From Panopea generosa (Eukaryota > Mollusca > Bivalvia > Adapedonta > Hiatellidae): 64,000 nt of DNA. The notes below the pieces were generated by a model. The model was not told where the DNA came from. It did not search any database and worked only from the letters and a program-made list of their open reading frames with translations. How positions within the stretch are numbered: position 1 is the first letter of the stretch; each line of letters starts with the position of its first letter. Below are positions 1,521 to 60,430 of this stretch, one piece after another. A program made the position numbers and the translations under genes. The stretch covers positions 47,613,228-47,677,227 of the forward strand of contig CM055901.1 of the NCBI GenBank assembly GCA_029582155.1. The letters run 5' to 3'.

Positions 1521-2167
1521 CTTCAGAAGCACTGATATCTCCCATCTAAAAGTAAAGTTACACAGATGAAAATGTCTGTCTATAATAAAATCCAATGTTT
1601 GTAAGCCATTTCAACATTTAATTACTGTTTTCATTTTCTGTTGACATAATCCTCTAAATAAACTGTTCATAACATATAATGACTACAGCTGAAGCAGATG
1701 GTAGGCGTAATATCTCACACTTCAAGGGAAATTCTGGGGGGAAATGTAACTGATCCATATATAAACAGTGATTCATATTTTTAAAAATATTTTGTCTCCT
1801 AGCAGTTATTGTAATTATGTAAATAAGGACTCTGAGATGCAAAGGCAATGAGATAAAACAAATATTGTAAGAGATACCAATCCACGCAGACATTAAAGGT
1901 GACTATAATGAAATAACACATATCAGATAACACTCACTAGGCAGCAATATTCATGAAGTATATCAAAGAAAGATTGGGGGCTTATAACCTCAGTGCAGCA
2001 ACTAGAAATAATAAGGTTATTAACATTGTCTGTTTTAAAATTTAGACATCAAGTAATAATGAGGTAACTAGTGAATAGTCTTAGACTTCTTTCTACAATA
2101 TAAAAATTTACCTCAATATCATTCTTTAAAAAATGCCTTTGTTTTGTCATGAAGTCCTTAATATATT
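1521..2167. other. AT-rich non-coding stretch
   Basis: Unique sequence between two arrays. No recognisable gene or element is seen. Confidence 0.5.
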
Positions 2168-6926: not shown

Positions 6927-7186
6927 AATTCTACATTAGCTCAGTTGGTAGCACATATGACTATCAATCCAAGGGTTGAGTGAATGAATCCTGAACTGAC
7001 CACAGTCTCCATGATGACTGATAAACAACATTGTGTCTTATCAGCAGTCTTCTCTCACAGTTGATTCAAGTGACATATTGGTGTATACTCAGGACTGTGT
7101 AACATTCTGGGATCCCAGATAGGAGTGGTTATAAAGGTTAACCGATCATCTAGCAACAAAATTAAGCTAATATTCATTCAATACAT
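6927..7186 (+). mobile_element. tRNA-derived SINE, family 1
   Basis: It has an A-box-like TTAGCTCAGTTGGTAGC, a degraded B-box region, then the family body (CAGTCTCCATGATGACTGAT, GTGTCTTATCA, GGGATCCCAGA, GGTTAACCGATCATCT) and a tail ending ATTCATTCAATAC. The same body is found at 8.2, 14.3 and 58.4 kb. Target duplications were not clear here. Confidence 0.8.
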
Positions 7187-7919
7187 ATAAATTGTGCTAT
7201 AAATGATATTTTTGAGATATGAGATTATTATAAGAGTTAAATTACTCAATTTGATATCATAGTATTAACTTATGTAACCCTGTAATAACTCTCATTTAGT
7301 TGCTGATAATCCTGTAAAATACTGACTCTAATATCCACTATCTTATAAAATGTTGCTAGGTGACATTGATGACCTTATGACCAAACCTTTCAGAAAATCA
7401 TGTTTTTTTAGCAGTTTCATTGAAATTTTAATAAAAAAGTCTGAAGTGCTTCAAGATGTTATCTGTGCTTCCCTAGTGCAATGATCACATTAATGCATAC
7501 TTTGAATTCTAGATAAAAAAAACATTTATCCATTAATACACTTCATAGGGGCTTGAAACAACAGATCAATTTGCATTCTCAGGTGGCAAATCTTGTAGTC
7601 AGTGAATAGAAGTTTCTTTTGTTTTTAATGTGATGTACAATAATTTGTGGCAGAACTCAGATAAACAGTGAAAAGCGTCACATGTCCATATATTCATGAT
7701 CACAATCATGTCATAAATATTTTGTATTTCATCAGTTTCTATTGGAATGATAGAAAGAAAAAATACAAAAATACCTATTTGTATTTTTTTTTAAGAATTT
7801 TTACTCATATTTTCAAAACAAGCCTTATAAAAAAATGATACTGATTTCTTAAATATGTAGTTTCAGATCCGTGGTGTAAAGATTTATTGTGTGAACATTT
7901 AAATTTTGCATCAGGCACT
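7187..7919. other. Non-coding stretch
   Basis: AT-rich sequence with homopolymer A/T runs. No gene or repeat family was recognised. Confidence 0.45.
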
Positions 7920-8098
7920 GTCCAGCTAGCCTCAAAAGAGAAAGTTTCCCAGTTACTGGCGGAAGGATGTTGGATCTACTCAGATTCATTTTGAGGTATT
8001 CATCCACCATTAAAATAGGACATGTCATATATATAACCTGAAATGTGTTGAAAGTGGCGTTAAACTCTATTTAAAAAGAATAAATAATAATAATGTCA
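7920..8098 (+). mobile_element. SINE family 2, 5'-truncated
   Basis: It contains the family-2 body (CTACTCAGATTCATTTTGAGG, TCATCCACCATTAAAATAGGA, ATATAACCTGAAATGTGTTG, GGCGTTAAACTC) and an A-rich tail with AATAATAAT. The tRNA-like head seen in the copies at 14.6, 61.3 and 62.3 kb is missing. Confidence 0.75.
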
Positions 8099-8160
8099 AT
8101 ATTGTCATTATCACCACAAGACTGCATATTATTTTACCATGCAATGTTATGAGCTCTTCT

Positions 8161-8174
8161 CAGGTCAGCAAGGA
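8161..8174. repeat. SINE target-site duplication, left copy
   Basis: CAGGTCAGCAAGGA, repeated exactly at 8462-8475, brackets the SINE between them. Confidence 0.92.
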
Positions 8175-8461
8175 TTGATTAAATATTTAGCATCATTTTT
8201 ATGCCATCAAGGGCTTACAGATGATCAGTTAACCTAACCACTGTTTCCTGGGATCCTTGAAGGTTAACCAGTACTCAAGCACACCCCATCTCAGCAAGCA
8301 ACTAATAACTTTCCCACTTGAATCAGAGGTGAGAGACGAATGATAATGAGATACAATGTCGTATATCAATCATCACGGTGATTGTGGCCAGGCAGGAATT
8401 CGAACTCATGACCCCCGGATTGATAGTCAGATGCGCTAATGACTGAGCTAATCGGGCCCGG
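8175..8461 (-). mobile_element. tRNA-derived SINE family 1, near intact
   Basis: On the minus strand it begins with a clear tRNA-like head: A box in TTAGCTCAGTCATTAGCGC and B box GAGTTCGAATTCC about 25 bp on. The family body and a tail ending ATTTAATCAATC follow. It is flanked by a perfect 14-bp target duplication, CAGGTCAGCAAGGA, at 8161-8174 and 8462-8475. This is the best-preserved SINE copy in the window. Confidence 0.93.
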
Positions 8462-8475
8462 CAGGTCAGCAAGGA
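8462..8475. repeat. SINE target-site duplication, right copy
   Basis: Second copy of CAGGTCAGCAAGGA next to the tRNA-like head. Confidence 0.92.
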
Positions 8476-9235
8476 GAAACTTTATTAACTGACAAAAATT
8501 GAACAATGAAACAAAATGGAGAAAAGGAATGTCTTTAACATGAGAGCATTTATGTTCTTTATTCTAAAAATCAAAAACAAATTATTAAGGCATACTCTGG
8601 TAACTCCCTACTCTCATATTTAAATGACCATTGATTTACAGAGCCTCATCCAAATGAGGTAAGGAAAATACCATCAAATCGTCAAAACCAAAAACTGGAA
8701 GCTAGAATTATGACGAAAAGCAATAATAGACCAGTGAGAAAGTGCCTGCTGTCTATTACAATGTCAGAGACAATCAATGGTAAAAAGATTCCTTACAATA
8801 CAGGGGCCATTTTGACCTATATTTAATAACAGTTATCAGTTTTCCTCAGCCTCTGTGAGCCATTTACTGGGAAAAAGACTCAGTCCTGAATAGATGCCAC
8901 ATTGGCTTTGTACCACCATAGTTCTGCCATGGTCAGCTACGACTATATAATTAACTTTCTGCTTAAGTTATTTTCAATAAGTCCAGTGACCCTTCATGCT
9001 TGTACCTTCATGGAAAAATCTTTACTAACCAGTTGCAGATATCATCTATTCTGTACGGAGCTGAAAGTAGGGAGAGTTGGGAAAATTCTGATGTTGAATT
9101 ACAGAAACAGTTCCATGATTCTATATAAGAATGTTCCCAAAAGCTGTTTATTGTATTAATAAATCTCACCTACCTAACAAGGGAGCACTGCTCAATTAAT
9201 TCATCAATATGGACCTGATACCTGCATTACTTTGG
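8476..9235. other. Non-coding stretch with an unassigned 85-codon frame
   Basis: An open frame at 8902-9159 (+) is followed within a few bases by AATAAA. Its protein shows no motif I recognise and its length is within chance expectation, so it is not called as a gene. Confidence 0.35.
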
Positions 9236-9447
9236 TTTAACTTATTTATTTAACATCGACTATTAAACAAGTTCTTACAACTTAGACAAATAAAACTCAA
9301 AGTCTTCCTGGGTAGAATCTGAAGTAAATATATGCAGATAAATTGTCTTGCACAAGGACAACATACAAGGTTGTGGCAGAGGAATGAACCCACGACCCTC
9401 TGTTCTTGGATTGGATGCTCTACTGCTGGGCCATGAGCTCAACCTAC
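9236..9447 (-). mobile_element. tRNA-derived SINE, family 3
   Basis: The minus strand reads as a tRNA-like head (CAGCAGTAGAGCATCCAAT, then GTCGTGGGTTCATTCC as B box). A body follows with TTGTCCTTGTGCAAGACAAT, a stretch common in invertebrate SINEs, and an A/T-rich tail with TTAAATAAATAAG. Confidence 0.78.
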
Positions 9448-11633
9448 ATTACTAGCTTCTCAAAGTCCTTAAAAAATGCCCGTTTGCAGATAACTGTCAT
9501 GTTTCTACAATGTATGCTCACGTTTATCATATACAACTAAAGGACTGCACAACTCATTTTTAAAATTCTGATAATGAGTAACTATTCCAGCTGCTATTGA
9601 TTGTATCAACACGCTATTCTCAGTCAGTCATTGGTAATAAACAGCTTATTTAAAATCATCAAGGGAAAGGTCTTTAACAGAAATCCAGCAATTAATCATA
9701 AAACTATTATTATAAAAATTGCGTTTACATCAAAATACATCTGAAAAACTGCCAATACCCCAAAGGACTATAATCAAAATATATGTTACAATCATACGAT
9801 AAACTTTATAACCTCATTTAACAAATTTACCTATCATTAAACTTGCATTGGCCCTAAAACTACCCAATAATGTAAAAATCATCAATATAGATAGATCTAT
9901 TTTCAAACTAACAAATATCAAATAAAACAAAGTTTGAGAGCTTAATTACCTGAAAGTTTATTAGGAAACCTATATAAAACAAGTAAATCAAATTATAGCC
10001 ACAATTAACATTATATATGAATAAAACTAACAATTTTGAGAAAAAAAATCAAAATAACGCGAGTGACAAGACTGTCTGCTACAACCTTATATCATAATAT
10101 GGGTTTCTAAACACAGATTCATCTAAAACCTTTTATAAGCTGCGCGAAGGACTAATATAGAAGGATAAAAAACTTGCATCTCCTGACTAAATGTTGATGA
10201 AATAGCATACAAAGGATTACTTATTTGGCCAATTAATCATTCAGAATTCACAGGCAACTGATTTCTTATACATTAAATGTAAGTTGTATGTAATCTTAAA
10301 TGTTTGAATTACCCAAAATTTCTCACAATTTTGTTGCTTTTTATACGGTATATCCATTTTGCAGTATACACTTTTTGTTATCAGAAGTACTTCACCAATT
10401 GCTGGGAATGGTCTTGTTTTGATGAGAATTTCATTCTGCAATGTAAGAATTGATTTGTGTTCCTAAGATGAATGGAAGTTAAGATAACTGAAACTGAGAT
10501 ATTGCAAGATTTTGCATGAATACTCCGGCGTTCACAAAATCTCAATTAGTTGCCTTTCCTTCTCTATACAAGTTCTTGGCAGCACCAACTATCTGGCACT
10601 GTTCACTGGCAACTTTTTATGTAATTCCAACATGTTATTTCAGAATAAAAGTAGAAGCAAAAAAATATTTTTAAGTCTATTTTTAGTTGTAGTGGCCATT
10701 TTGGATTTAATTCAACCTGATTTCTCTAGGACCAGTTAGACAGACATCAAGTACAACATTCCTGAGTTTTATATGAAAAACAAACCAGTAGTTTTATAGG
10801 AGTTTTCTTAACAAAAATAGTTGACAGAGACAAATACAGACAGACAAACGGCCACCAGATGACGCACTACAGCATAAGCACTGCTGATCTTAGGTTTTAT
10901 AAGTTGAGTTAAAAATAGGAAAAATTTCAAATGTCTAATAACCACGGTTAATTCTTCCTTCCACGACTGGCTTCCTCTTTCTACTCCCTACTTAAAAGAA
11001 TCAGGAAAATTAGCGATCATCAAACCAAGAGATTTTAAGGAAGCATGATTGGCATTAAAATTAAAATCGCACAAGTGTTTCAACAAGTCTTAATGTCATA
11101 AATAACATCTTGTAATTCTCCCCATTAAGTGCTACTGCCTGTGTGCTGGTGTACCTAGTAGAGGAACCTGATTTTGAGCTCTTCCACTATATTCTGACAA
11201 AGATTAGAAAGGAATGCACCGTATTGACATACAGGAGGAACAGAAATAGAGCACTTTGTGGCTATAAACTGTATTTTATCTCTCTCAGAATGGAACTCTC
11301 CTCTTACACTGAATTCTAGGTCAACAGAATATCTGTCATGTTTTCTTCTCTTTTATAATGAAACTGACACAAACTTTTACAACTGTTAAGTAGATAAGAT
11401 GATTAAAATTTTGAATGGTTTGTATTTGGTAAAAAGTGAGGTAGCATGCAATTCATTATTATGATAATATTTTCAAACACATCGAAACCACTATCTCTCA
11501 TCATCAGTGCTTTTTCTTTGATATTTTTAAACAATCTATATTCAGGCCAATGTATGTTTTAGTTGTTTGTTGTTAAGTGTTGCTTTCAACAATTTTTCAG
11601 TTGCGACAGTGTCAACTTAAAAACAGTTTTCAA
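9448..11633. other. Long AT-rich stretch, mostly unassigned
   Basis: No confident gene. Near 10.79-10.89 kb a GACAGACAAACGGCCACCAG-type segment resembles the tail of pearl/Helentron-like elements. A 54-codon open stretch on the minus strand around 11.16-11.33 kb is noted among the rejected items. Confidence 0.4.
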
Positions 11634-11862
11634 AGCACTGCTACACTTGAGTATCATGCCGCAGACATATGATATGATACCCCACCCAGTCACATTATAC
11701 TGAAGCCGAGTTGACTAGACCTAGAACTATTCTTGAAATGTTGGGTGCCAAGCCAGAAGCTTCGAGTACCATTTTTCAAATCTTTGGTATGACCCGGCCG
11801 GGGATCGTACCACAAACTTCCACATGCGAGGTAGACGCTCTACTCCAAAATCACAAGTGCAG
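11634..11862 (-). mobile_element. tRNA-derived SINE, family 4
   Basis: The minus strand starts with a tRNA-like head: GAGTAGAGCGTCTACCTCGC, anticodon-arm-like ATGTGGAAG and B box GGTACGATCCCC. The body includes GGTACTCGAAGCTTCTGG and GTGACTGGGTGGGGTATCAT, and the tail GTCTGCGGCATGATACTCA, GTGTAGCAGTGC. Head and tail both have counterparts in minisatellites of this window (0.7-1.5 kb and 42.6-45.5 kb). Confidence 0.82.
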
Positions 11863-14291
11863 TTATAGGTCAATGAAGACCCTGTGAGTAACTCAAAGGC
11901 TGACCAGGCTGTACATAGAGCAGTCCAATATTATATGTAGTGCATCTGACATCCAGCAACACTGTTGGTACTGAGAAATTATGATTTGGCAGATTAAACG
12001 ATGTGCAAAAAGAACTGCAGTCACTGAACTGCTCTGAGTAACCATTACATGCATATTTTCGAGTGTTGTTGCTATGTAACATTATTTAATATCAATACGG
12101 ATCTTGGCAAATGCATAGAGGAAACATTACTTTTAATGGCATTACAATTTTTATTCATGTGCTGTTTAAAAAAAAAAAATTAAACAAGTTTATTTTTGGG
12201 GGGGCGGAGTTTAGCAGCTGCTCTCAGAGCTAACATGATTTTTTTCTATACTGCAAATCTACAACTGTGTATCGTGTTAATGCAAACCTGACAACCACCA
12301 ATCAAATAGTTCCACCACCTAATAAGCGTTCGAACCCACTATAAACAGTAGATTCGCCTTTTTCAACGAAAACTTTAATATTATAACAGACAGCAACGAT
12401 TTATACCTACAAACAATTGTGTATCGTATAAGTTCCAAGTTTATATTCAGTGCTATTATTCTGCACAACGGAATTAAAGTGCATGAGTACAGACACGCTG
12501 AACTATGGTCACGTGACCAAAAGATTTTTCAGGACGCCATCTTGGACAACAATTTAAGACAGACAACTGCGTATTTAACTATAAGTCGTAATATATTTGC
12601 CATAATTCATTGAATACGGGAACAAACTTTTCTAGATTTGTCGCTTATGCCAAGGAACTATACTTCTTTAGTTCCTAACATATGCCAATAAACAATCAAT
12701 ACTTGTTCTAAAAATAGAGATATGCTTATGGTGATCACATGATTTGCCGTTTCTCCCAAATGTTTAAAAATAGACTTGTATTCCTAAAAAAGAATTTGAG
12801 ATTGATCAAGTTATGAATAATGTCTGTTTTGTTTTTTTGTTATTTAGTAAATATTTCATTATATTTCCAATAATTGCAACGGTAGATAATTTCCATTTAA
12901 ACATGTAAGAGTTAAAGCATTTGTGTTTCCGTAGCAAAATAGGCAAACATTCAGATGTGTCTAAAAATCGGCGCCATAACATTTTGGCTAGTGCGGTTCC
13001 GTTTATGGGGTGATATAGGGCTCCATAAAATATAAATGTAAGAATCAATTATTAATGTCGACATACACATTTCTACTTTTCGTCTTTTAAACAAACTGTC
13101 ATACTGTTGCGCTAGAGAAATCAATAAAGAAAATAGTAAATGAATATACTCAAAATGGAATTCATAGTGCTAGATTCAGAGCACTTTGATATTTCATATA
13201 TGATAGAAAGCTTGTCATTTCTGAAAATTTCACAAGTTGAGTAAACTGTTGAAGATACAAATCTCATATCACTGAGTTGAACTAATATCTTGAAGTTGGA
13301 AGTTGATGTTCCTACTATAGCAGAAAATACACTTTCAAAGGCAAACCATTCAGTTATATTCTCCGACTTATTCGAGAAAAGGGTCAACGTTAAGCATAGA
13401 ACATGTAGATTTTGTACCCTGTATAAGAATCAAAGGTAATCGTGATTATTCTACTTCAATGTATGCAAACTGATCTGTTTGTCTAAAACAATAGCTCACC
13501 AAATTGTTTAATTTGATCCTTCTTTCCATTTTGTTTAAGTTTTAAATAATAAGCGGACAAACATTTGCAGGTCCACATATAAGCACTAAATCTGGCCTCA
13601 TAAAAACAATTTTTTTTTAAAAAAAGAAATAAATATCCAAACAGACTTTATATTTAGCTTCAACATCAGACAGCTGAATGTTTGGGAACAACCTGATACA
13701 GAGCGTAAACATAATTACTACAGAATCAAGATGCACCAGAAAATCAAGGTAGTCAAAGATAAAGCAAAAAGCAACATTCAGTAACATCTGTAAGGGGGAA
13801 AATTATATTAATTCAACTGTACCTGCAGCTCGGATATAACGGAATATACGTTTGTACACAAATTAAACATTATAACATTTTATGATTTACAGGTACATTC
13901 TGTGATAACACTATCTGGGTAACAGCTGCTCATGATGCTCCAAGTGCATAATGACTGACCCTGACCCTTACTGTTGGCCTTGACCTTTGTGTTTCAATTT
14001 TAATTTTTAGATTATTTTTAAAATAGCACTCCATCAGGTAACCAACTATTTTTAGCTATCAGATATAAGTGATATCAGAACTATCAGATATATGTGATAT
14101 CAGAACTAACTAATGCTTTTTTTCAAATGACCATGAACCTAACTGCCAGTCTTGAATCTTGAAGTTCAAATAAGCTTAAGACTACTTCTTCAAGCGGTTG
14201 GACAAACTGCAATCTTTTAAACTGCATAAATGAAGGTGATTTGGGTGAGTATGTTGAACTGAGACAATATTGTCCTTTCTGAAGAGTGTGT
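11863..14291. other. Non-coding stretch
   Basis: Apart from the promoter-like motif cluster at 12.5 kb, no gene or element is recognised. A 25-bp direct duplication around CAGATATAAGTGATATCAG sits at about 14.06-14.11 kb. Confidence 0.4.
12507..12545. promoter_or_regulatory. Possible promoter motif cluster (E-box and YY1-like)
   Basis: A perfect 12-bp palindrome GGTCACGTGACC (CACGTG E-box) lies 17 bp from GCCATCTTGG, the core of the YY1 consensus, often found near start sites. No convincing first exon is seen beside it, so this is only a candidate. Confidence 0.25.
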
Positions 14292-28631: not shown

Positions 28632-31600
28632 TTTATATATTGATCGGATGATGTCATCCCCAGTATAATATTGGACCAGACCCTACCATATACCAATATA
28701 ATGATCAGATGATGTCATCCCCAGTATAATACTGGACCTGACCCTACCATATACTAGTCTATTGACCGGATGATGTCATCTCCAGTATTTTATTGGACCA
28801 GACCCTACCATATACTAGTCTATTGACCGGATGATGTCATCCCCAGTATTATATTGGACCTGACCCTACCATATACTTGTCTATTGACCGGATGATGTAA
28901 TCCCCAGTATTTTATTGGACCAGACCCTACCATATACTAGTCTATTGACCGGATGATGTCATCCCCAGTATTATACTGGACCTGACCCTACCATATACTA
29001 GTCTATTGATCGGATGATGTCATCCCCAGTATTATATTGGACCAGACCCTACCATATACTAGTCTATTGACCGGATGATGTCATCCCCAGTATTATATTG
29101 GACCGGACCCTACCATATACTAGTCTATTGACCGGATGATGTCATCCCCAGTATTATATTGGACCGGACCCTACCATATACTAGTCTATTGACCGGATGA
29201 TGTCATCCCCAGTATTATATTGGACCTGACCCTACCATATACTAGTCTATTGACCGGATGATGTAATCCCCAGTATTATATTGGACCGGACCCTACCATA
29301 TACTAGTCTATTGACCAGATGATGTCATCCCCAGTAATACATTGGACCGGACCCTACCATATACTGGTCTATTGACCAGATGATGTCATCCCCAGTAATA
29401 CATTGGACCGGACCCTACCATATACTAGTCTACTGACCAGATGATGTCATCCCCAGTATTATATTGGACCGGACCCTACCATATACTAGTCTATTGACCA
29501 GATGATGTCATCCCCAGTATTATATTTGACCGGACCCTACCATATACTAGTCTATTGACCGGATGATGTCATCCCCAGTATTATATTGGACCGGACCCTA
29601 CCATATACTAATATAATGATCAGATGATGTCATCCCCAGTATTACATTGGACCGGACCCTACCATATACCAATATAATGATCAGATGATGTCATCCCCAG
29701 TATTATATTGGACCGGACCCTACCATATACCAATATAATGATCAGATGATGTCATCCCCAGTATTATATTGGACCGGACTCTACCATATACCAATATAAT
29801 GATCAGATGATGTCATCCCCAGTATTATATTGGACCAGACCCTACCATATACCAATATAATGATCAGATGATGTCATCCCCAGTATTATATTGGACCAGA
29901 CCCTACCATATACCAATATAATGATCAGATGATGTCATCTCCAGTATTATATTGGACCGGACCCTACCATATACTAGTCTATTGACCAGATGATATCATC
30001 CCCAGTATTATATTGGACCGGACCCTACCATATACTAGTCTATTGACCGGATGATGTAATCTCCAGTATTATATTGGACCAGACCCTACCATATACTAGT
30101 CTATTGACCGGATGATGTCATCCCCAGTATGATATTGGACCGGACCCTACCATATACCAATATAATGATCAGATGATGTCATCCCCAGTATTATATTGGA
30201 CCAGACCCTACCATATACCAATATAATGATCAGATGATGTCATCCCCAGTATTATATTGGACCAGACCCTACCATATACCAATATAATGATCAGATGATG
30301 TCATCTCCAGTATTATATTGGACCGGACCCTACCATATACTAGTCTATTGACCAGATGATATCATCCCCAGTATTATATTGGACCGGACCCTACCATATA
30401 CTAGTCTATTGACCAGATGATGTCATCCCCAGTATTATTTTGGACCGGACCCTACCATATACTAGTCTATTGACCGGATGATGTCATCACAAGTATTATA
30501 TTGGACCAGACCCTACCATATACTAATATATTGATCGGATGATGTCATCCCCAGTATTATATTTGACCGGACCCTACCATAAACTAGTATATTGACCAGA
30601 TTTTGTCATCCCAAGTATTATATTGGACCGGACCCTACCATATACTAGTATATTGATCAGATGATGTCATCCTCAGTATTATATTGGATCAGACACTACT
30701 TTATACTAGTATATTGACTGGATGATGTCATCCCCAGTATGATATTGGATGAGACCCTACCATATACCAATATAATGATCAGATGATGTCATCCCTAGTA
30801 TTATATTGGACCGGACCCTACCATATACTAGTATATTGACCAGATGATGTCATCCCCAGTATCATATTAGACCCGACCATACCATATACTAATATATTGA
30901 TTGGACGATGTCATTCCCAGTATTATATTGGACCAGACCCTACCATATACCAATATATTGATCTGATGATGTCATCCCTAGTTTATATTGGACCGGACCC
31001 TACCATATACTTATATATTGATTGCATGATGTCATTCCCAGTATTATATTGGACCAGTCCCTACCATATACTAATATACTGACAGGATGCTGTCATCCCC
31101 ACTATTATATTGGACCGGACCCTACCAAATACAAATATATTAATCGGATGATGTCATCCCCAGTATTATATTGGACCGGACCCTTCCATATACCAATATA
31201 CTGATCAGATGATGTCATCCCTAGTATTATATTGGACCGGGCCCTACCATATACTAGTATATTTACCGAATGATGTCATTCCCAGTATTATATTGGACTG
31301 GACCCTACCATATACTAGTATATATTTACCGAATAATGTCATCCCAAGTATTATATTGGACCTGACCCTACCATATACTAGTCTATTGACCGGATGATGT
31401 CATTCCCAGTATTATATTGGACCGGACCCTACCATATACTTATATATTGATCGGATGATGTCATTCCCAGTATTATATTGGACCGGACCCTACCATAAAC
31501 TAGTATATTGACCAGATTTTGTCATCCCAAGTATTATATTGGACCGGACCCTACCATATACTAGTATATTGATCGGATGATGTCATCCCCAGTATTATAT

Positions 31601-31764
31601 GTGACCGGACCCTACCATATACTAGTTTATCGACCAGATGATGTCATTCCTAGTATTATAATGGACCGGAACCTACCATATACTTGTATATTGACTGGAT
31701 GATGTCATCCCCATTATTATATTGGACGGGACCCTACCATATACTTGTATATTGACCTGATGAG
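28632..31764. repeat. 61-bp minisatellite with 6-unit higher-order repeat
   Basis: About 51 units of 61 bp (GATGATGTCATCCCCAGTAT, TATATTGGACCGGACCCTAC, CATATACTAGTCTATTGAC). Two subtypes, ACTAGTCTATTGACCGG and ACCAATATAATGATCAG, occur in blocks. A block with the variant TGATATCATC at 29991 recurs at 30357, an offset of 366 bp or six units. Each unit has GATGATGTCATC, containing the CRE-like TGATGTCA. Short plus-strand frames in the degenerate right part are artefacts. Confidence 0.95.
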
Positions 31765-33311: not shown

Positions 33312-36300
33312 AAACATGAGAGGTGAGTGCTAACATATTTAAATCATGAAAGGTGAGTGCACACTTGTCTTGACTAATATACCAATCATGAGGTGAGTGC
33401 TACTTTGTCTTCACTAATATATCAATCATGACAGGTGAGTGCACCTTTGTCTTCACTAATATATCAATCATGACAGGTGAGTGCACCCTTGTCTTCACTA
33501 ATATATCAATCAAGACAGGTGAGTGCACCATTGTCTTCACTAATATATCAATCATGAAAGGTGAGTGCACCTTTGTCTTCACTAATATACCAATCGTGGA
33601 GAGAGGTGAGTGCTACCTTGTCTTCACTAATATATCAATCATGAGATGTGAGTGCACCATTGTCTTCACTAATATATCAATCATGAGAGATGAGTTCACC
33701 CTTGTCTTCACTAATATATCAATCATGAGACGTGAGTGCTACCTTGTCTTCACTTACATATCAATCATGAGGAGAGGTGGGTGCACCCTTGTCTTTACTA
33801 ATATATTAACCATGAGGAGAGATGAGTGCACCCTTGTTTTCACTAATATATCAATCATGAGAGGTGAGTGCACCTTTGTCTTCACTAATATATCAATCAT
33901 GAGTGGTGAGTGCTACATTGTCTTCACTAATATGTCAATCATGAGAGGTGAGTGCACCATTGTTTTCACTAATATGTCAATCATGAGAGGTGAGTGCACC
34001 ATTGTTTTCACTAATATATCAATCATGAAAGGTGAGTACACCCTTGTCTTCATTAATGCATTAATCATGAGAGGTGAGTGCACCTTTGTCTTCACTAATA
34101 TATTAACCATGACAAGAGATGAGTGCACCCTTGTCTTCACTAATATATCAATCATGAGAGGTGAGTGCACCATTGTCTTCACTAATATATCAATCATGAC
34201 AGGCGAGAGCACCATTGCCTTCACTAATATATCAATCATGAGAGGTGAGTGCAGCATTGTCTTCATTAATATATTAATCATGGGAGGTGAGTGTACTATT
34301 GCCTTCAAACTTATATCAATCATGAGAGGTGAGTACACCCTTGTCTTCACTAATATATCAATCATGATAGGTGAGTGCTACCTTGTTTTCACTAATATAT
34401 CAATCATGAGAGGTGAGTGCACCATTGTCTTCACTAATATATCAATCATGAGAGGTGAGTGCACCCTTGTCCTCACTTATATATCAAGCATGAGAGGTGA
34501 ATGCACCCTTGTCTTCACTTACATATCAATCATGAGGAGAGGTGGGTGCACCCCTGTCTTCACTAATATATTAACCATGAGGAGAGATGAGTGCACCCTT
34601 GTCTTCACTAATATATCAGTCATGAGAGGTGAGTGCACCCTTGTCTTCACTAATATATCAATCATGAGTGGTGAGTGCTACATTGTCTTCACTAATATGT
34701 CAATCATGAGAGGTGAGTGCACCATTGTCTTCACTAATATGTCAATCATGAGAGGTGAGTGCACCATTGTTTTCACTAATATATCAATCATGAAAGGTGA
34801 GTACACCCTTGACTTCACTAATGCATCAATCATGAGAGGTGAGTGCACTTTGTCTTCACTAATATATTAACCATGACAAGAGATGAGTGCACCCTTGTCT
34901 TCACTAATATATCAATCATGAGAGGTGAGTGTACCATTGTCTTCACTAATATTATCAATCATGACAGGTGAGAGCACCATTGCCTTCACTAATATATCAA
35001 TCATGAGAGGTGAGCGCAGCCTTGTCTTCATTAATATATTAATCATGGGAGGTGAGTGCACTTTTGCCTTCATTCTTATATCAATCATGAGAGATGAGTA
35101 CACTCTTGTCTTCACTAATATATCAATCATGAGATGTGAGTGCACCCTTGTCTTCACTAATATATAAACCATGAGGAGAGGTGAGTGCACACTTGTCTTC
35201 ACTAATATATCAATCATGAGAGGTGAGTGCACCCTTGTCCTCACTTATATATCAAGCATGAGAGGTGAGTGCACCCTTGTCTTCACTTACATATCAATCA
35301 TGAGGAGAGGTGGGTGCATCCTTGTCTTCACTAATATATTAACCATGAGGAGAGGTGAGTTCACACTTGTCTTCACTAATATGTCAATCATGAGAGGTGA
35401 GTGCACCATTGTTTTTACTAATATATCAATCATGAAAGGTGAGTACACCCTTGTCTTCACTAATGCATCAATCATGAGAGGTGAGTGCACCATTGTCTTC
35501 ACTAATATATCAAGTATAATGAGAGGTGAGTTCACCTTAGTCTTCACTAATATATTAACCATGACAAGAGATGATTGCACCCTTGTCTTCACTAATATAT
35601 CAATCATGACAGGTGAGTGCACCATTGCCTTCACTAATATATCAATCATGAGAGGTGAGTGCAGCCTTGTCTTCATTAATATATCAATCATGGGAGGTGA
35701 GTGCACTATTGCCTTCATTTGAATATCAATCGTGAAAGGTGAATGCACCCTTGTCTTCACTAATATATCAATCATGAGAGGGGAGTGCACCCTTGTCTTC
35801 ACTAATATATAAACCATGAGGAGAGGTGAGTGCACCCTTGTTTTTAGAATATATCAATCATAAGAAGTGAGTGCACCATTGTCTTCACTAATATATCAAC
35901 CATGAGAGGTGAGTGCACCATTGTCTTCAATAATATATCAATCATGATAGGTGAGTGCACCCTTGTCTTCACTAATAAATCAACCAGGAGAAGTGAGTTT
36001 ACCTTTGTCTTCACCAATATATCAATCATGATAGGTGAGTGCACCCTTGTCTTCACTAATATATCATTCAGGAGAGGTGAGTTCACCTTTGTCTTCACTA
36101 ATATATCAATCATGAGAAGTGAGTGCACCCTTGTCTTCACTAATATATCAATCATGAGAGGTGATCGCACCATAGTCTTCACTTATATATCAATCATGTG
36201 AGGCGAGTGCACCATTGTCTTCACTAATATATCAATCATGAGAGGTAAGTTCACTCTTGTTTTCACTAATATATCAACCGTTGGAGGTGAGTGCACCCTT

Positions 36301-37962
36301 GTCTTCACTAATATATCAATCATGAGTGGTGAGTGCTACATTGTCTTCACTAATATGTCAATCATGAGAGGTGAGTGCACCTTTGTCTTCACTAATATAT
36401 CAATCATGAAAGGTGAGTACACCCTTGTCTTCACTAATGCATCAATCATGAGAGGAGAGTCCACCCTTGTCTTCACTAATATATCAATCATGAGAAGAGG
36501 TGAGTTCACCTTTGTCTTCACTAATATATTAACCATGACAAGAGATGAGTACACCCTTGTCTTCACTAATATATCAATCATGACAGGTGAGTGTACCATT
36601 GTCTTCACTAATATATCAATCATGACAGGTGAGTGCACCATTGTCTTCACTAATATAGCATTCATGAGAGGTGAGTGCACACTTTTCTTCATTAATATAT
36701 CAACCAGGAGAGGTGAGTGCTACCTTGTCTTCATTAATATATCAATCATGGGAGGTGAGTGCACTATTGCCTTCACTCTAATATCAATCATGAGAGGTGA
36801 GTGCACCCTTGTCTTCACTTATATATTAATCATGTGAGGCAAGTGCACCATTGTCTTCACTAATATATCAACCATGAGAAGTGAGTGCACCCTTGTTTTC
36901 ACTTATATATCAATCATGAGAGGTGAGTGCACACATGACTTCACCAATATATTAAACATGAGGAGCAGTGAATGCACCCTAGTCTTCACTAATATATCAA
37001 ACATGAGAGGTGAGTGCACCATTGTCTTCACTAATATATCAACCAGGAGAGGTGAGTGCACCACTGTCTTCACTAATATATCAATCATGAGAGGTGAGTG
37101 CACACTTGTCTTCACTAATATATCAACCATGAGAGGTGAGTACACTCTTGTCTTCACTAATATATCAATCATGAGAGGTGAGTGCAAACTTGTCTTCACT
37201 AATATATAAACCATGAGAGGTGAGTGCACCATTGTCTTCACTAATATATCAACCATGAGAGGTGAGTGCACCATTGTCTTCACTAATATAATAACCAGGA
37301 GAGGTGAGTGCACCATTGTCTTCACTAATATATCAATCATGAGAGGTGAGTGCACACTTGTCTTCACTAATATATCAATCATGAGAGGTGAGTGCACCCT
37401 TGTCTTCACTAATATATCAATCATGAGAGGTGAGTGCACCATTGTCTTCACTAATATATCAATCATGAGAGGTGAGTACAAACTTGTCTTCACTAATATA
37501 TCAATCATGAGAGATGAGTACAAACTTGTCTTCACTAATATATAAACCATGAGAGGTGAGTGCACCATTGTCTTCACTAATATGTCAATCATGAGAGGTG
37601 AGTGCATCCTTGTCTTCACTAATATATCAATCATGAGAGGTGAGTACAAACTTGTCTTCACTAATATATAAACCATGAGAGGTGAGTGCACCTTAGTCTT
37701 CACTAATATATCAATTATGAGAGGTGAGTGCACCATTGTCTTCACTAATATGTCAATCATGAGAGGTGAGTGCACCATTGTCTTCATTAATATATCAATT
37801 ATGAGAAGTGAGTGCACCTTAGTTTTCACTAATATATCATTCATGAGAGGTGAGTGCACCCTTGTCTTCACTAATATATCAACCATTGGAGGTGAGTGCA
37901 CCCTTGTCTTCACTAATACATCAACCATTGGAGGTGAGTGCACCCTTGTCTTCACTAATATA
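33312..37962. repeat. 42-bp minisatellite, main block
   Basis: About 110 units of 42 bp, with a few 45-bp variants (ATCATGAGAGGTGAGTGCAC, CCTTGTCTTCACTAATATAT, CA). Variant order repeats: units with GGAGAGGTGGGTGCA occur at 33771, 34536 and 35304, offsets of 765 and 768 bp, close to 18 units. As 42 is 3x14, frames stay open over long distances on both strands (480 codons plus at 33428-34870; 350 codons minus at 36903-37955), encoding 14-residue repeats. Most units contain AGGTGAGT, which matches a strong 5' splice site. Confidence 0.97.
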
Positions 37963-38619: not shown

Positions 38620-38999
38620 TATCAATCATGAGAGGTGAGTGCAAACTTGTCTTCACTTATATATAAACCATGAGAGGTGAGTGCACCTTAGTCTTCACTA
38701 ATATATCAATAATGAGAGGTGAGTGCACCTTAGTCTTCACTAATATATCAATAATGAGAGGCGAGTGCACCTTAGTCTTCACTAATATATCAATCATGAG
38801 TGGTGAGTGCACCCTTGTCTTCACTAATATATCAACCATTGGAGGTGAGTGCACCCTAGTCTTCAAAAATTTATCAACCATGAAAGATGAGTGCTATTTA
38901 GTCATCATACATATAATATATTAAGTCATTCATGGTGTGAGTGTACCCTTATCTTCACTAGTATAATATATTAGGTCACTCATGAGGTGAGTGCACCCA
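38620..38999. repeat. 42-bp minisatellite, continuation after insertion
   Basis: About nine units in the same phase and orientation as the block left of the nested element, diverging toward 39.0 kb. Confidence 0.93.
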
Positions 39000-42601: not shown

Positions 42602-42619
42602 CCCCCCCCCCCCCCCCCC
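42602..42619. repeat. C18 homopolymer (G18 on minus strand)
   Basis: Eighteen consecutive C, placed exactly between the DIRS-like fossil and the 54-bp array. The G strand could form a quadruplex. The length is prone to sequencing error. Confidence 0.95.
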
Positions 42620-45472
42620 AGCCTGCCACACTGGAGTATCATGTTGCAGTCACATATTATACTGATATCATGGTGACTGCCACACTGAAGTATCATGCTG
42701 CAGTCATATATAATACTGATATCATGGTGACTGCCACACTGGAGTATCATGTTGCAGTCACATATTATACTGATATCATGGTGACTGCCACACTGAAGTA
42801 TCATGCTGCAGTCATATATAATACTGATATCATGGTGACTGCCACACTGGAGTATCATGTTGCAGTCACTTATTATACTGATATCATGGTGACTGCCACA
42901 CTGGAGTGTCATGCTGCAGTCATATATAATCCTGATAGCATTATGACTGCCACACTGCAGTAGCATATTGCAGTCATACAGTTTACGGATATCATATTGA
43001 CTGCTACACTGGAGTACCATGTTGCAGTCATATATCATACAGATATCATGGTGACTGCCACACTGGAGTATCATGTTGCAGTCATACATTATACAGATAT
43101 TATGGTGACTGCCACACTGGAGTATCATGTTGCAGTCATATATTATACAGATATCATGGTGACTGCCACACTGGAGTACCATGTTGCAGTCACATATTAT
43201 ACTGATATCATGGTGACTGCCACACTGGAGTATCATGATGCAGTCACATATTATACTGATATCATGGTGACTGCCACTCTGGAATATCATGTTGCAGTCA
43301 CATATTATACTGGTATCATGGTGACTGCCACACTGGAGTATCATGTTGCAGTCATATATTATCCTGATAGCATTATGACTGTCACACTAGAATATCATGT
43401 TGCAGTCATACATTTTATGGATATCATGGTGACTGCAACACTGGAGTATCATGTTGCAGTCATACATTTTAAGGATATTATGATGACTGCCACACTGGAG
43501 TATCATGCTGCAGTCATATACTTTAAGGATATTATGGTGACTGCCACACTGGAGTATCATGTTGCAGTCATATATTTTAAGGATATCAGGGTAACTGCCA
43601 CACGGGAGTATCATGCTGCAGTCATACATTTTAAGGATATTATGGTGACTGCCACACTGGAGTATCATGCTGCAGTCATACATTTTAAGGAGATTATGGT
43701 GACTGAAACACTGGAGTATCATGTTGCAGTCATACATTTTAAGGATATTATGGTGACTGCCACACTGGAGTATAATGTTGCAGTCATACATTTTAAGGAT
43801 AATATGGTGACTGCCACACTGGAGTATCATGCTGCAGTCATACATTTTAAGGATATTATGGTGACTGCCACACTGGGATATCATGCTGCAGTCACATATT
43901 ATACGGATATCAGGGTGACTGCCACACTGGAGTATCATGTTACAGTCATATATTATACTGACATTATGGTGACTGCCACACTGGAATATCATGCTGCAGT
44001 CATATTTTATCCTGATACCATTATGAGTGCCACACTGGAGTATCATGTTGCAGTCATACATTTTAAGGATTTTATGGTGACTGCCACATTGGAGTATCAT
44101 ATTGCAGTCATACATTTTAAGAATATCAGGGTAACTGCAACACTGGAGTTTCATGTTGAATTCATACATTTTACGGACATCATGGTGACTGCCCCACTGG
44201 AGTATCATGTTGCAGTCATACATTTTACGGATATCAGGGTGACTGCCACACTGGGATATCATGCTGCAGTCACATATTATAAAGATATCAGGGTGACTGC
44301 CACACTGGAGTATCATGTTACAGTCATATATTATACTGATATTATGGTGACTGCCACACTGGAGTATCATGTTGCAGTCACTTATTCTATGGATATCATA
44401 GTGACTGCCACACTTCAGTATCATGCTGCAGTCCCATATTATACTGATAACATTGGGACTGCCACACTGGAGTATCATGCTGCAGTCACACATTATACTG
44501 ATATCATTGGGACTGCCACACTGGAGTATCATGCTGCAGTCACATTTTATACTGATATCATTGGGACTGCCACACTGGAGTATCATACTGCAGTCCCATA
44601 TTATACTGATATCATTGGGACTGCCAAACTGGAGTATCATGCTGCAGTCCATTTTATACTGATATCATGGTGACTGCCACACTGGAGTATCATGCTGCAG
44701 TCACACATTATACTGATATCATGGTGACTGCCACACTGGAGTATCATGTGGCAGTCATATATAATCCTGATAGCATTATGACTGTCACACTGGAGTATCA
44801 TGCTGCAGTCACACATTATACTGATATCATGGTGACAGGTAGACTGGAGTATCATGCTGCAGTCACACATTATACTGATATCATGGTGACTGCCACACTG
44901 GAGTATCATGTTGCAGTCACTTATTATACTGATATCATGGTGACTGCCACACTGGAGTTTCATGTTGCAGTCACTTATTATACAGATATCATGGTGACTG
45001 CCACACTGGAGTATCATGCTGCAGTCACACATTATACAGATATCATGGTGACTGGTAGACTGATGTATCATGTTGCATTCACATGTTATACTGATATCAT
45101 GGTGATTGCCACACTGGAGTATCATGCTGCAGTCATTTATTATACGGATATCATGGTGACTGCCACACTGGAGTATCATGTTGCAGTCACATATTATACG
45201 GATATCATGGTGACTGCCACACTGGAGTATCATGTTGCAGTCACTTATAATATGGATATCATGGTGACTGCCACACTGGAGTATCATGCTGTAGGCACAT
45301 ATTATACTGAATTCATGGTGGTATAATACTGCAGTCACATATTACAGTAATTGCCACAGTTGAGTATCATGTTGCAGTCATACATTATGTTGATATCATG
45401 GTGACTGCCACACTAGAGTATCAAGCTGCAGTTACATATTTAATTGACAGCATGGTGACTGCTACACTGGAG
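42620..45472. repeat. 54-bp minisatellite derived from SINE tail
   Basis: About 53 units of 54 bp (TGACTGCCACACTGGAGTAT, CATGTTGCAGTCATATATTA, TACTGATATCATGG). ACTGCCACACTGGAGTATCATG...CATAT agrees with the tail of the SINE at 11.63 kb at 30 of 34 positions, and CAGTCACAT(AT)TATACTGA matches a nearby part of that SINE. As 54 is 3x18, frames are open on both strands (558 codons at 42997-44673 plus; 421 at 43387-44652 minus), encoding 18-residue repeats. Not considered genes. Confidence 0.95.
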
Positions 45473-46871
45473 TATAGTCCTATATAATATATATATCTAA
45501 TAGTAGCAACGTTTGTAACAGACAGTTACCTGTTTTATTACAAAACCCTACTGACTCATAACTGTAATCAGTAACATATCGACTCCATTCGTTAATACTG
45601 ACAAATGACCATTTTATGTTTTTAATTCTAGTTGATTATTCCCCACCCAGAACATCCACTTAATTTGCTGCGAATTATCCTAATGATTCATTATTATGCT
45701 TCTATATCAATGGATTTTTTACATTCCATGACGTCATATTGACAGCAACTGTACTGTAACAAAGCAAAACAAGAAAATATTCATGCAAAGCTTCAAAGTC
45801 GACCGGAATACATTGCACACGATTGTATGGCTGAGAAAAAAGCCATCATACCTATATTTTGTAAAACGTAACAGATGCAGCATAATAATTCAAATTACCT
45901 GTATTTGATTAATATACAGATACCAATGTTCTCGTTCCAGTTTTATTCGAGTATTCCAATAATCGGTATCCAAACAGACCAAAACCTGTCAATAATTGAA
46001 ACAAGCAAACTATTGTAACAAATCTATGTTTTTGTTAGCTAATTTATGATCACAAAAAATATTACCAGTATCAGCATATGAAAAACATGCAAATCATACT
46101 AACAAGATAATTATTCTTCATTTAATTAAAAAAAAGTAACTAGTCCAGTAACTACTTCAGAAATCTGTAGTAAATAGAGTCACCCACCATCCGCTCGACT
46201 AATAGAATCATGTATGGAGATAGATTTTGAAATAAAATTTACACTGGAATAAGTTCTGAATGTTTATTGGTTTTTGTTTCTTTGTCTTTCGTGTATGTGT
46301 TATTATGTACAGACTAGATATAATATAAATTTCATTGAAAATCATTTAGTAGAAATGTGTCCAACAGGACATGGATATTCCAGCTATATGTTAGTTATTT
46401 TACTAAAAATTAAATTGGATCTGTAACTCCTTTGAAAGTTGACCAACTGTTAACCAATATTGAATTTGACCATTTTTTTAATTTTATAGCTATACATAAA
46501 AAGATCCTTTCAGACTTTACTGATCAGAAACAGATTTGAAAGACCCACGGTCACATGCGGCAAACAAATAGGTGGATGGACAGGGACAATAACACCTACT
46601 GCCCCATTACCATTCAAAGAATGGTGTAAACATAAAAAGTGGGGCAACTGTGAAAAATAAAGCCTTAAAATCTTAGTTCCTGACAAGATAATAAGTCTGG
46701 AGAAATAACATTAGTGGATTTCATTTAATGTGAAGTGTGGTCCCCTCATTTACTACAATATATACATTATTGATCCTTTCACAGGCAATATAATCCCGGC
46801 CACTGATGAACCATATGATAGTATTCTCCTATATACATATGGCATTCATCGTAAAGCTTCTATTATCCCCA
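45473..46871. other. Unassigned stretch
   Basis: No gene recognised. It contains one perfect cAMP-response element (listed separately). Confidence 0.4.
45729..45736. promoter_or_regulatory. Perfect CRE (TGACGTCA)
   Basis: A single full palindromic CREB/ATF site. A chance occurrence is possible in this length, and no start site is identified. Confidence 0.2.
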
Positions 46872-55007: not shown

Positions 55008-57425
55008 AATAATTCAGATAACAATACTTGGAGATCAATATATCCACAATGTCATACACCCATTGGTGTAAAGTTTTACTTGATGCAGAAACATCACTTT
55101 CAGATAACAATACTTGGAGATCAATATATCCACAAGGTTATACGTCCATAGGTGTAAAGTTTTACTTGATGCAGAAGCATCACTTTCAGATAACAATACT
55201 TGGAGATCAATATATCCACAAGGTTATACGTCCATAGGTGTAAAGTTTTACTTGATGCAGGAACATCACTTTCAGATAACAATACTTGGAGATCAATATA
55301 TCCACAAGGTCATACACCCATAGGTGTAAAGTTTTACTTGATGCAGGAACTCACTTTCAGATAACAATACTTGGAGATCAATATATCCACAAGGTCATAC
55401 ACAAATAGGTGTAAAGTTTTACTTGATGCAGAAGCATCACTTTTGGATAACAATATTTGGAGATCAATATATCCACACGGTCATACACAAATAGGTGTAA
55501 AGTTTTACTTGATGCAGGAACATCACTTTCAGATAACAATACTTGGAAATCAATATATCCACAAGGTTATTCGTCCATAGGTGTAAAGTTTTACTTGATG
55601 CAGGAACTTTCAGATAACAATACTTGGAGATCAATATATCCACAAGGTCATACACCCATAGGTGTAAAGTTTTACTTGATGCAGGAACTCACTTTCAGAT
55701 AACAATACTTGGAGATCAATATATCCACACGGTCATACACAAATAGGTGTAAAGTTTTACTTGATGCAGAAGCATCACTTTCGGATAACAATATTTGGAG
55801 ATCAATATATCCACACGGTTATACGTCCATAGGTGTAAAGTTTTACTTGATGCAGGAACTCACTTTCAGATAACAATACTTGGAGATCAATATATCCACA
55901 CGGTCATACACAAATAGGTGTAAAGTTTTACTTGATGCAGAAGCATCACTTTCGGATAACAATATTTGGAGATCAATATATCCACACGGTCATACACAAA
56001 TAGGTGTAAAGTTTTACTTGATGCAGGAACATCACTTTCAGATAACAATACTTGGAGATCAATATATCCACAAGGTTATACGTCCATAGGTGTAAAGTTT
56101 TACTTGATGCAGGAACATCACTTTCAGATAACAATACTTGGAGATCAATATATCCACAAGGTCATACACCCATAGGTGTAAAGTTTTACTTGATGCAGGA
56201 ACTCACTTTCAGATAACAATACTTGGAGATCAATATATCCACACGGTCATACACAAATAGGTGTAAAGTTTTACTTGATGCAGAAGCATCACTTTCGGAT
56301 AACAATACTTGGAGATCAATATATCCACACGGTCATACACAAATAGGTGTAAAGTTTTACTTGATGCAGAAGCATCACTTTCGGATAACAATATTTGGAG
56401 ATCAATATATCCACAAGGTCATACACCCATAAGTGTAAAGTTTTACTTGATGCAGGAGCATCAGTTTCAGATAACAATACTTGGAGATCAATATATCCAC
56501 AAGGTCATACACCCATTAGTGTAAAGTTTTACTTGATGCAGGAGCATCAGTTTCAGATATCAATATTTGGAGATCAATATATCCACAAGGTCATACACAA
56601 ATAGGTGTAAAGATTTACCTGATGCAGAAGCATCACTTTCAGATAACAATACTTGGGGATCAAAATTTCCACAAGGCCATACACCCATAGTAGTAAAGTT
56701 TTACTTGATGCAGAAACACCACTTTCAGATAACAATACTTGGAGATCAATATATCCACAAGATTATACTTACATAGGTGTAAAGTTTTACTTGATGCAGA
56801 AGCATCACTTTCAGATAACAATACTTGGAGATCAATATATCCACAAGGTTATACGTCAATAGGTGTAAAGTTTTACTTGATGCAGAAGCACCACTTTCAG
56901 ATAACAATACTTGGAGATCAATATATCCACAAGGTTATACGTCCATAGGTGTAAAGTTTTACTTGATGCAGGAGCATCAGTTTCAGATAACAATATTTGG
57001 AGATCAATATATCCACAAGGTCATATGTCCATAGGTGTAAAGTTTTACTTGATGCAGAAGCATCACTTTCAGATAACAATACTTGGAGATCAATATATCC
57101 ACAAGATTATACTTACATAGGTGTAAAGTTTTACTTGATGCAGAAGCACCACTTTCAGATAACAATACTTGGAGATCAATATATCCACAAGGTTATACGT
57201 CCATAGGTGTAAAGTTTTACTTGATGCAGGTGCATCAGTTTCAGATAACAATATTTGGAGATCAATATATCCACAAGGTCATATGTCCATATGTGTAAAG
57301 TTTTACTTGATGCAGAAGCACCACTTTCAGATAACAATATTTGGAGATCAATATATCCACAAGGTCATACATCCATAGGTGTAAAGTTTTACTTGATGCA
57401 GAAGCACCACTTTTAGATAACAAGA
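55008..57425. repeat. 86-bp minisatellite
   Basis: About 28 units of 86 bp (ATAACAATACTTGGAGATCA, ATATATCCACAAGGTCATAC, CCATAGGTGTAAAGTTTTAC, TTGATGCAGAAGCATCACTT). Subtypes (CACGG versus CAAGG; GGAACTCACT deletion; TTTCGG) recur in the same order, so blocks were duplicated. The many 69-codon frames starting every 86 bp are artefacts. Confidence 0.96.
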
Positions 57426-58425
57426 CATGGAGCACATATAACAACAATATACAGTCATGTATACAAGGAATACAGGCCATTGGTAATAGTCTTATTCAAC
57501 TATTAATGAAAAAAAAGAGATTTATTCACCATGTTGATTAGGAGAAGTTCATTATAGTATATGTTAATGTTTCATTTGCATACACTGATGAACTTATCAA
57601 AATGAACTGTCATAAAAACTGAAATATCTGCGTACAATTTAATGCTCACATGTCAGATAAACCAACCTGAAGATCAGGTTTAATAATAAGAAGCAATGCC
57701 GCCAACAGCTGTAGACACTGGTAGACAAACAGTAGTGATAATCAGTTGTTTTTTCCACTACCCCATGACACTGAATAATTCTCATAATAGTCAGTAAAAT
57801 TGTAATTTTGACAAACCTATGATAGAAATTACCAAGCTCTTGTGACTTTTTCTTTAAACTAGTTTATTACAGAATTTATGAGTAAGTTTAGGTATACATA
57901 AAACCAACCTTCTTTCAGGTTTGAAATAGTTTGACCTTGACAACTTGCCCTTCAAGGTAACCATCAGCCAACAAACTGTCTATCACGCACACCTCTTCTT
58001 GTACAGTTATTAAATGATGGACATCTTTAGAAACCATTATTGTGCAGCATAAAGTGCAGGGGAAGACATCACAAGACATTCACATTATGTTTTGACACGG
58101 TAAATCAGTGATAAAGCATCAGAGCTATAGTCACGTTTTACGGAAACATAACTTTACAGTAATTACAAACATATTTTGCACAGCTTTTTCCATCAAACAA
58201 TTGGCATGTTTCAAGAACTTTTGACTTAAATGTTTCACAGTGCTTATAACAATACTTTGAGGATTCGCGCAGGAAGAATGTATGTTTTAAATTGCTTCCA
58301 ACAATCAAACAGTAATATCGTGACAGTGCCTGGTTAAGACAGTATTTTAAGAAGAGAGCATATAAGTACCAGTTTAATACCCCCGACCAGTTGCATTTGA
58401 TTGTTTATTTGAATATTTAGAGGTT
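57426..58425. other. Unassigned stretch
   Basis: No gene or repeat recognised. Confidence 0.45.
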
Positions 58426-58600
58426 AACCAGTACTCAAGAACACCAATCTCCACAAGTAAATAACTTTCCCATTTGAATCAGTGATGACAGGAATGCAAT
58501 GACATGGAATGTCATATATGGCTGAGCGGAGATTCCAACTCACAACTCCTGTATAAATAGTCAGATGTTCAAATGACTGAGCTAATTTGGCCTGTTACCA
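58426..58600 (-). mobile_element. tRNA-derived SINE family 1, 3'-shortened
   Basis: The minus strand shows AATTAGCTCAGTCATTTGAAC, TGAGTTGGAATCTCC as a degraded B box and the body up to CTGGTTAACCTC. The 3' tail present in other copies is missing. Confidence 0.78.
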
Positions 58601-58619
58601 TAGTCCTAGATGCGGAGCT

Positions 58620-58735
58620 CCAATCAAGGAAGTTTTGAGTACTGTATCTTTAAATTTGGGTATTATGGAACTCATACTAAGCTCTAGCATGTCAGACAGA
58701 CACTTTACTGCTTGATCTATGGTGTTGTTTGGAAC
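58620..58735 (-). mobile_element. tRNA-like SINE head fragment
   Basis: The minus strand reads ATCAAGCAGTAAAGTGTCTG, TCTGACATGCTAGAGC and TATGAGTTCC, i.e. an A-box and partial B-box arrangement like that of family 4. Adjacent to the family-1 copy. Weakly supported. Confidence 0.4.
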
Positions 58736-60299: not shown

Positions 60300-60430
60300 G
60301 CAATATAATTATATACAGAGAGCATTCACCTAGTATGCGGAAAGTCATGGGTTTGATCCCTGTGTAATGTATATGTATGTATGACTGGACTGACCAGGGA
60401 AGCCTAATCCAGGATTCTTAAAAGTAAGCA
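60300..60430 (+). mobile_element. tRNA-like SINE fragment
   Basis: GAGAGCATTCACCTAGTATG, then GTCATGGGTTTGATCCCTGT (good B box) gives a tRNA-like 3' half. The A-box side is diverged. The following body is not one of the four families defined here. Confidence 0.45.

Follow-up and report, generated by a model that had tools for sequence, protein, structure and literature searches.

The 54-bp minisatellite in the window (the whole 64,000-nucleotide stretch of Panopea generosa DNA that was analysed) very probably arose by multiplication of part of a SINE. With a probability of roughly three in four, it grew in place from the internal 3' part of one old tRNA-derived SINE copy, the ends of which were then lost. 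Once a minisatellite has drifted, it is often difficult to tell where it came from. In this genome, however, an apparent graded series is present, namely the plain SINE, the SINE with an internal array, the one-ended array, and the bare array, the last being represented in the window, and birth, growth, and loss of origin are therefore testable locus by locus.

The 54-bp array

The tandem array described in an earlier note on this DNA is real and has a TRF period of 54. It extends in total from 42623 to 45475 (~52 copies, ~2.9 kb, TRF; Table 1). The units up to 45320 score 0.83-0.98 against the unit consensus, and the right edge is decayed. Local variant blocks are present, e.g. two versions that alternate at 42623-42838. 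No function is indicated for the array, and neutral turnover is the likeliest reading.

Table 1. Coordinates of the window, of its features, and of one pair of duplicated array loci
Feature	Position	Strand	Remarks
Window	C8:47613228-47677227		Genome of 1.47 Gb, 39 contigs
60-bp-unit array	670-1521	-	43 bp of the unit correspond to positions 7-49 in the tRNA-like head of the parent SINE family
Window copy of the parent SINE, with its tRNA-like head on the right	11555-11863	-	82% identical to the consensus
Segment of the window SINE copy matching the array unit	11637-11703	-	Two pieces, 11637-11670 and 11690-11703
Run of 18 C	42602-42619	+	3 bases left of the 54-bp array, where the SINE 3' end would be expected
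54-bp minisatellite	42623-45320	- (SINE sense on minus strand)	50.0 copies (TRF)
Degenerate right edge of the 54-bp array	45321-45475	-	TRF: 2.3 copies at 45352-45475
L042 array, on C10	4402-6111		Duplicated locus
L046 array, on C19	1110-6297		Duplicated locus

The parent SINE family

A 315-bp SINE consensus was written by eye from eight aligned genome copies, i.e. the window copy, its duplicate, and six young copies. In it, a tRNA-like head is followed by a body and then by a CAA-rich end. Consensus positions 21-315 align at 11843-11555 on the minus strand of the window, and the last 20 bases of the head of the window copy were placed by eye. The limits of 11.63-11.86 kb previously given for this SINE had cut off its real 3' end, as the element reaches ~11555; the segment matching the array unit therefore lies in the internal 3' body, with ~85 bp of SINE beyond it. 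Weak further fragments resembling the parent SINE were seen at 58294-58654 and 60319-60360 of the window.

The parent element appears to be a tRNA-derived SINE, judging from the Rfam and ARAGORN matches of its head. The head of the young copy L006 matches the Rfam tRNA model with 24.6 bits (E 0.0076), a value that does not reach the gathering score of 29, and ARAGORN identified tRNA-Ala(CGC) in three of the six young copies and no tRNA in the other three. Target-site duplications and a simple-repeat 3' end, both features of SINEs, are present: seven copies (the six young ones and the window copy) were given to the direct-repeat script, which could place five, all young, and these five have direct repeats at their flanks (13-16 bp, at most one mismatch), most of them also having CAA-rich ends. 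The copy number is likewise as high as in a SINE, with 4,689 exact genome matches to one 30-base pattern (28 specified bases) from the 3' body and none to the reversed control. The bivalve SINE superfamilies named in PMC10294476 are Meta, Deu, V, and Core. Membership in such a superfamily would be indicated by a conserved central domain.

Relationship between the array unit and the SINE

The unit consensus and the window SINE copy are identical at 29 of 34 positions in the first matching piece, and the second, the 14-mer TCACATTATACTGA, is exact and has no other plus-strand occurrence in the window. The earlier note had reported a match of 30 of 34 bases to the 3' tail of the SINE and a second match of 17 bases; the similarity is indeed beyond chance, but the matching segment belongs to the internal 3' body (consensus 163-228 of 315), and the second piece exists but is exact over 14 bases. 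With the SINE consensus as the target, the unit scores 41 and the best of 3,000 dinucleotide shuffles 34; with the window copy, the values are 43 and 30, so that none of the 3,000 reached the observed score. The outcome was the same throughout when the test was repeated with two gap settings and two SINE targets.

When positions 173-195 (23 bp) are removed from the SINE consensus, 43 of the 54 unit bases align without gaps and 38 of them are identical; for the unit at 44782-44835, the most SINE-like of those tried, the identity rises to 40 of 43. In a scan of deletions with starts at 161-205 and lengths of 15-34 bp, the best fit was found at 173-195, with a score of 61 vs 41 for the undeleted consensus. 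The unit can thus be described as consensus 163-228 minus 173-195 (43 bp) plus 11 bp for which the SINE does not account, TCACCATGATA (SINE strand). The previous description of the unit as about 50 bp of SINE with one internal deletion is correct as to the single deletion, but the SINE part is 43 bp long and leaves 11 of the 54 bases over. These 11 bases contain the 7-mer CATGATA, which is also present in the SINE, and we conjecture that they may be a cut-down second copy of the CATGATA-bearing SINE piece. On these alignments, the window array is a tandem array with a part of a SINE as its unit.

A pattern across the deletion junction was found, with at most two mismatches, in the window array, in its duplicate, and in five dispersed places, of which those on C1 and C19 have 1 mismatch and those on C3, C9, and C10 have 2. 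The place on C1 (L055), which is the one of the five that was read, is a single SINE of nearly full length, and by eye it carries the same 23-bp deletion. The shared deletion that the earlier note had proposed to look for therefore occurs outside the array, but it is weakly shared, the five dispersed places all differing from the pattern. L051 and L053 are single SINEs with other deletions of the same stretch (also by eye); the stretch has thus been lost more than once, and the deletion of the array need not mark a special subfamily.

Sister array loci

A whole-genome similarity search with two window units, in which 40 of 63 candidates were scored, matched the window array, its copy on C8 ~630 kb upstream, and weaker places elsewhere. 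Outside the window array, 20 places were examined over ~10 kb and 10 over 521 bp, and 4 more were listed. Exclusion from the 20 of the window duplicate (L029), L045 (a duplicate of L044), and L046 (a duplicate of L042) leaves 17 distinct loci, and because these were picked by similarity to the window unit, their register frequencies are biased towards this segment.

All 17 loci have part of this SINE as the array unit, with 4 to 135 units per array. Arrays with a SINE head still attached, for which the earlier note had suggested a search, do exist: the SINE head and tail are located at opposite array edges in 8 of the 17 loci (L031, L034, L035, L037, L039, L041, L043, and L048), and the head alone in one (L032). 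L034 is the weakest of the double-ended loci, with a tail piece of 17 bp, and the head of L041 begins at SINE position 48. Six loci (L030, L033, L038, L040, L042, and L044) have the tail end only, the array of L030 running off the stretch at the head side. The remaining two, L036 and L047, have neither end, and in these an ordinary SINE copy lies ~1 and 1.8 kb off, respectively, not joined to the array. In total, 15 of the 17 loci have, at one or both array edges, either a head or a tail match that reaches beyond position 262. These alignments show that the same SINE segment forms arrays elsewhere with SINE ends attached.

Weak head-side traces were detected in L033 (score 28; 0 of 300 shuffles) and L044 (score 23; 6 of 300), and the remnant test was at chance on both sides of L036 and L047, on the tail side of L032, and on the head sides of L038, L040, and L042. 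A convincing target-site duplication was found in none of the eight double-ended hosts, the best being 8 bp in L037. Eight of the 10 places examined over 521 bp resemble single SINE copies, whole or in part. Tandem SINE pieces ~70 and 77 bp apart are present in L056 and L058, which are outside the 17.

The window array belongs with the bare arrays L036 and L047. In the 800 bp on each side of it, no SINE remnant above chance was found: the comparison of the right side with the SINE head gave a score of 19, for which 56 of 300 shuffles were at least as good, and that of the left side with the SINE tail gave 16 (192 of 300), the positive controls in this test having scored 120 and 44. On neither side does a terminal unit continue towards the SINE end.

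Several further arrays were observed beside the sister arrays. In L032, 54-bp SINE-head units (2403-2814) are located just before the SINE head and its 62-bp body array, and L034 contains a 40-bp SINE-head array of 74.7 copies (7017-10000) that reaches the end of the stretch. In L040, 61.8 tandem copies of an 18-bp CAA-like unit (5336-6443) adjoin the SINE 3' end, and this array has perhaps grown from the CAA end of the SINE.

Registers and break points

The SINE has been cut in at least eight registers, with unit lengths of 24-70 bp: units of 24, 25, 44, 51, 53, 56, 59, and 70 bp and a class of 58-62 bp cut it at differing places. The 58-62-bp class accounts for 8 of the 17 loci and has several junction versions, and its junctions fall in two SINE near-repeats, CCGGTGTCAG (157-166) and CCAGTGTGACAG (217-228). 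The 70-bp register, with a 2-bp overlap, is common to L040 and L044. A strict 62-bp junction pattern has 497 matches genome-wide, and those listed (C1, C2, and part of C3) form six multi-match clusters and two singles, the spacing in the C3 cluster being 66 bp. Since only one of the six listed clusters (L043) is among the loci examined, more such arrays exist than were examined. When a 186-base trimer of the 62-bp unit was itself used as the query, no match was obtained; very common words are skipped in such a search, and the result is therefore not evidence of absence.

Two candidate explanations for the preference for this stretch were rejected. For a hairpin-driven birth, a stem of ~11 bp is possible, but the segment folds no better than its shuffles (200 shuffles; DNA, z -0.88, 40 as good; RNA, z -0.37, 65 as good). 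Nor are the internal repeats exceptional, as the best ungapped direct repeats of the SINE score 7.0 vs a shuffle median of 7. Among the internal repeat pairs of the SINE, the near-repeats at the 58-62-bp junctions do not rank first; they describe the break points and do not explain why the stretch is favoured.

Separate births and duplicated loci

When the arrays were masked, L042/L046 and L044/L045 were the only pairs in which flank matches of >200 bp extended over whole flanks. The other flank matches of >200 bp do not exceed 561 bp and lie at differing distances from the arrays, and the loci are therefore distinct places. A tree of array hosts and single copies was also evaluated; rows with fewer than 130 columns, i.e. 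six tail-only hosts and one single copy (L054), were left out of the count, for which nine hosts, 21 single copies, and the consensus (22 non-host rows) remained. The hosts are ungrouped in this tree, in which branch support is low for many nodes: the host label changes 7 times vs a shuffled mean of 8.0, and 524 of 2,000 shuffles were at or below this number. The four 60-62-bp hosts in the tree are also unclustered (4 changes).

The registers, the distinct flanks, and the scattered hosts together favour repeated, separate births. We further propose, tentatively and at somewhat less than even odds, that the 3' body of the SINE is a recurrent birthplace of minisatellites, where many copies have separately grown arrays from the same ~100-bp stretch, often in almost the same 58-62-bp register, at the near-repeats within the SINE. 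If this is true, one retrotransposon family would steadily be making new minisatellite loci out of its dead copies across the genome.

A competing possibility is that SINE copies with a small internal duplication were retrotransposed and seeded several arrays, so that the births would not all be separate. This would fit the nearly uniform register (58-62 bp) of 8 of the 17 loci as well as L040 and L044, which share one register without a flank match of >200 bp; the latter pair points to some duplicated segments having moved and not formed afresh, and some may have been carried by retrotransposition. However, the hosts, including the four 60-62-bp ones, are unclustered in the weakly supported tree, the 58-62-bp class has several junction versions, the remaining registers differ, and the private 54-bp unit would be left unexplained. 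We consider such seeding rather unlikely, separate births being preferred.

Array length in duplicated loci was also compared. L042 contains 27.8 copies vs 83.8 in L046, a threefold difference that has developed since the duplication of this pair, the flanks of which are 94-98% identical. In the window array and in its copy on C8 (L029), the number is the same (50.0 copies), and the two regions are 99.47% identical over 8.5 kb, array included. All five features searched (the 60-bp array, the SINE, and the 61-, 54-, and 86-bp arrays) recur in order ~630-635 kb upstream on C8 (L002 and L029). This upstream copy may be either a real duplication or an unmerged haplotype.

Origin of the window array

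The birth route from a SINE that the earlier note had proposed is supported by the sister loci with SINE ends; because no SINE remnant was found in the 800 bp on either side of the window array, its own birth is read from these relatives. In the course that we propose, a SINE would have inserted at the site of the array and would have lost ~23 bp (consensus 173-195). A short piece containing the deletion would then have been duplicated in tandem by slippage or unequal exchange, and would have expanded to ~52 units and drifted. The SINE head and tail would subsequently have been lost from the array edges, and finally, the whole region would have been duplicated, array included. Three points in this course are inferred: birth in place rather than the arrival of a ready-made array, which of deletion and duplication came first, and the mechanism of exchange.

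The array may alternatively have arrived from another locus, ready-made or as a seed of a few units, by way of circular DNA, non-homologous insertion, or segmental duplication. The window array, like L036 and L047, is without SINE ends, and array loci have been copied in duplications (L042/L046, L044/L045, and window/L029), both of which are consistent with such an arrival. We nevertheless consider it unlikely: when the genome was searched for the private junction of the unit (29-base pattern, at most three mismatches), all 60 matches fell in the window array or its copy 630 kb away on C8, and thus no donor is visible. The same search gave no indication of one homogenised 54-bp unit at several loci.

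Birth from the 3' end of a partner LINE that shares sequence with the SINE would be conceivable, given that, according to PMC10702118, SINEs contain a LINE-derived region without which the LINE machinery would not recognise them. The arrays of 9 of the 17 sister loci, however, are joined to a SINE head (in L041, from position 48 on), which makes a LINE source very improbable. Chance similarity, or an acquisition of the segment by the SINE from the satellite (the latter named in the earlier note as contradicting its reading), can be given practically no weight; no point in favour of either was found, 0 of 3,000 shuffles matched the observed score, the segment is present in thousands of SINE-like places (4,689 matches), and all eight aligned copies carry it, the window copy and its duplicate being two of the eight.

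Comparison with known systems

Arrays of SINE origin are already known from the SINE satellites of squamates, the Alu and B1 minisatellites of mammals, and a SINE-containing satellite of a limpet, and the present arrays are a further case. The closest resemblance is to the SINE-derived satellites (sSats) of squamate reptiles (Vassetzky et al. 2023, PMC10702118), in which the terminal unit runs to the SINE end. Both systems have partial tandem SINEs with a tRNA-derived head at many loci and in several registers, and in both a longer terminal unit extends to the SINE end, some loci are double-ended, and unit subvariants alternate. The genome and the SINE family are different, however, and the window array is without a SINE end. 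Double-ended loci amount to 8 of 17 here, whereas they are termed 'minor variants' in squamates. The same paper also reports minor variants without extended terminal units, so that an extended terminal unit is usual but not strictly required, and its authors regarded it as uncertain whether SINE-derived satellites are restricted to squamates.

Tandem repeats derived from human transposable elements (TEs) were described by Ahmed and Liang (2012, PMC3389668), and minisatellites derived from human Alu by Jurka and Gentles (2006; through citing text). In these, as here, parts of a SINE are repeated in tandem, but in PMC3389668 the human Alu-derived repeats average 2.3-2.4 units, in contrast to the 4 to 135 units of the 17 loci. 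Short direct repeats were proposed there as the start, and slippage or flanking direct repeats are said to cover only 6% of human TE-derived repeats. Models of TE-born minisatellites, as outlined in parts of PMC6947457 and PMC3389668, assume a duplication by slippage or unequal exchange between short repeats, followed by growth through further exchange, and the sister loci agree with this general picture. B1-derived mammalian minisatellites, known to us from the description of 1998 work in a review (PMC6947457), are likewise SINE-born. In molluscs, the PcH-sat of the limpet Patella caerulea, derived from Nin-SINE, similarly contains a SINE segment in its unit; its 179-bp unit occupies ~10% of the genome and is pericentromeric in the account that we consulted (PMC11121367), whereas the arrays described here are locus-private and have short units.

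Other arrays in the window

The unit of the 60-bp array is 82% identical to the SINE head over 43 bp (E 3e-7), and a search with two units matched only the window and the upstream copy on C8. The 61-bp array (28636-31763) has dispersed relatives, including tandem ones with a spacing of ~58-64 bp on C18, C4, and C15. Its unit gave no match to the parent SINE. A second repeat family may behave in the same way. Five dispersed partial relatives of the 86-bp array (55013-57432), 60-73 bp in length and 78-82% identical, were found on C2 (two), C14, C4, and C10. One 42-bp unit is present in two arrays (33335-37962 and 38620-38894) that lie ~650 bp apart.
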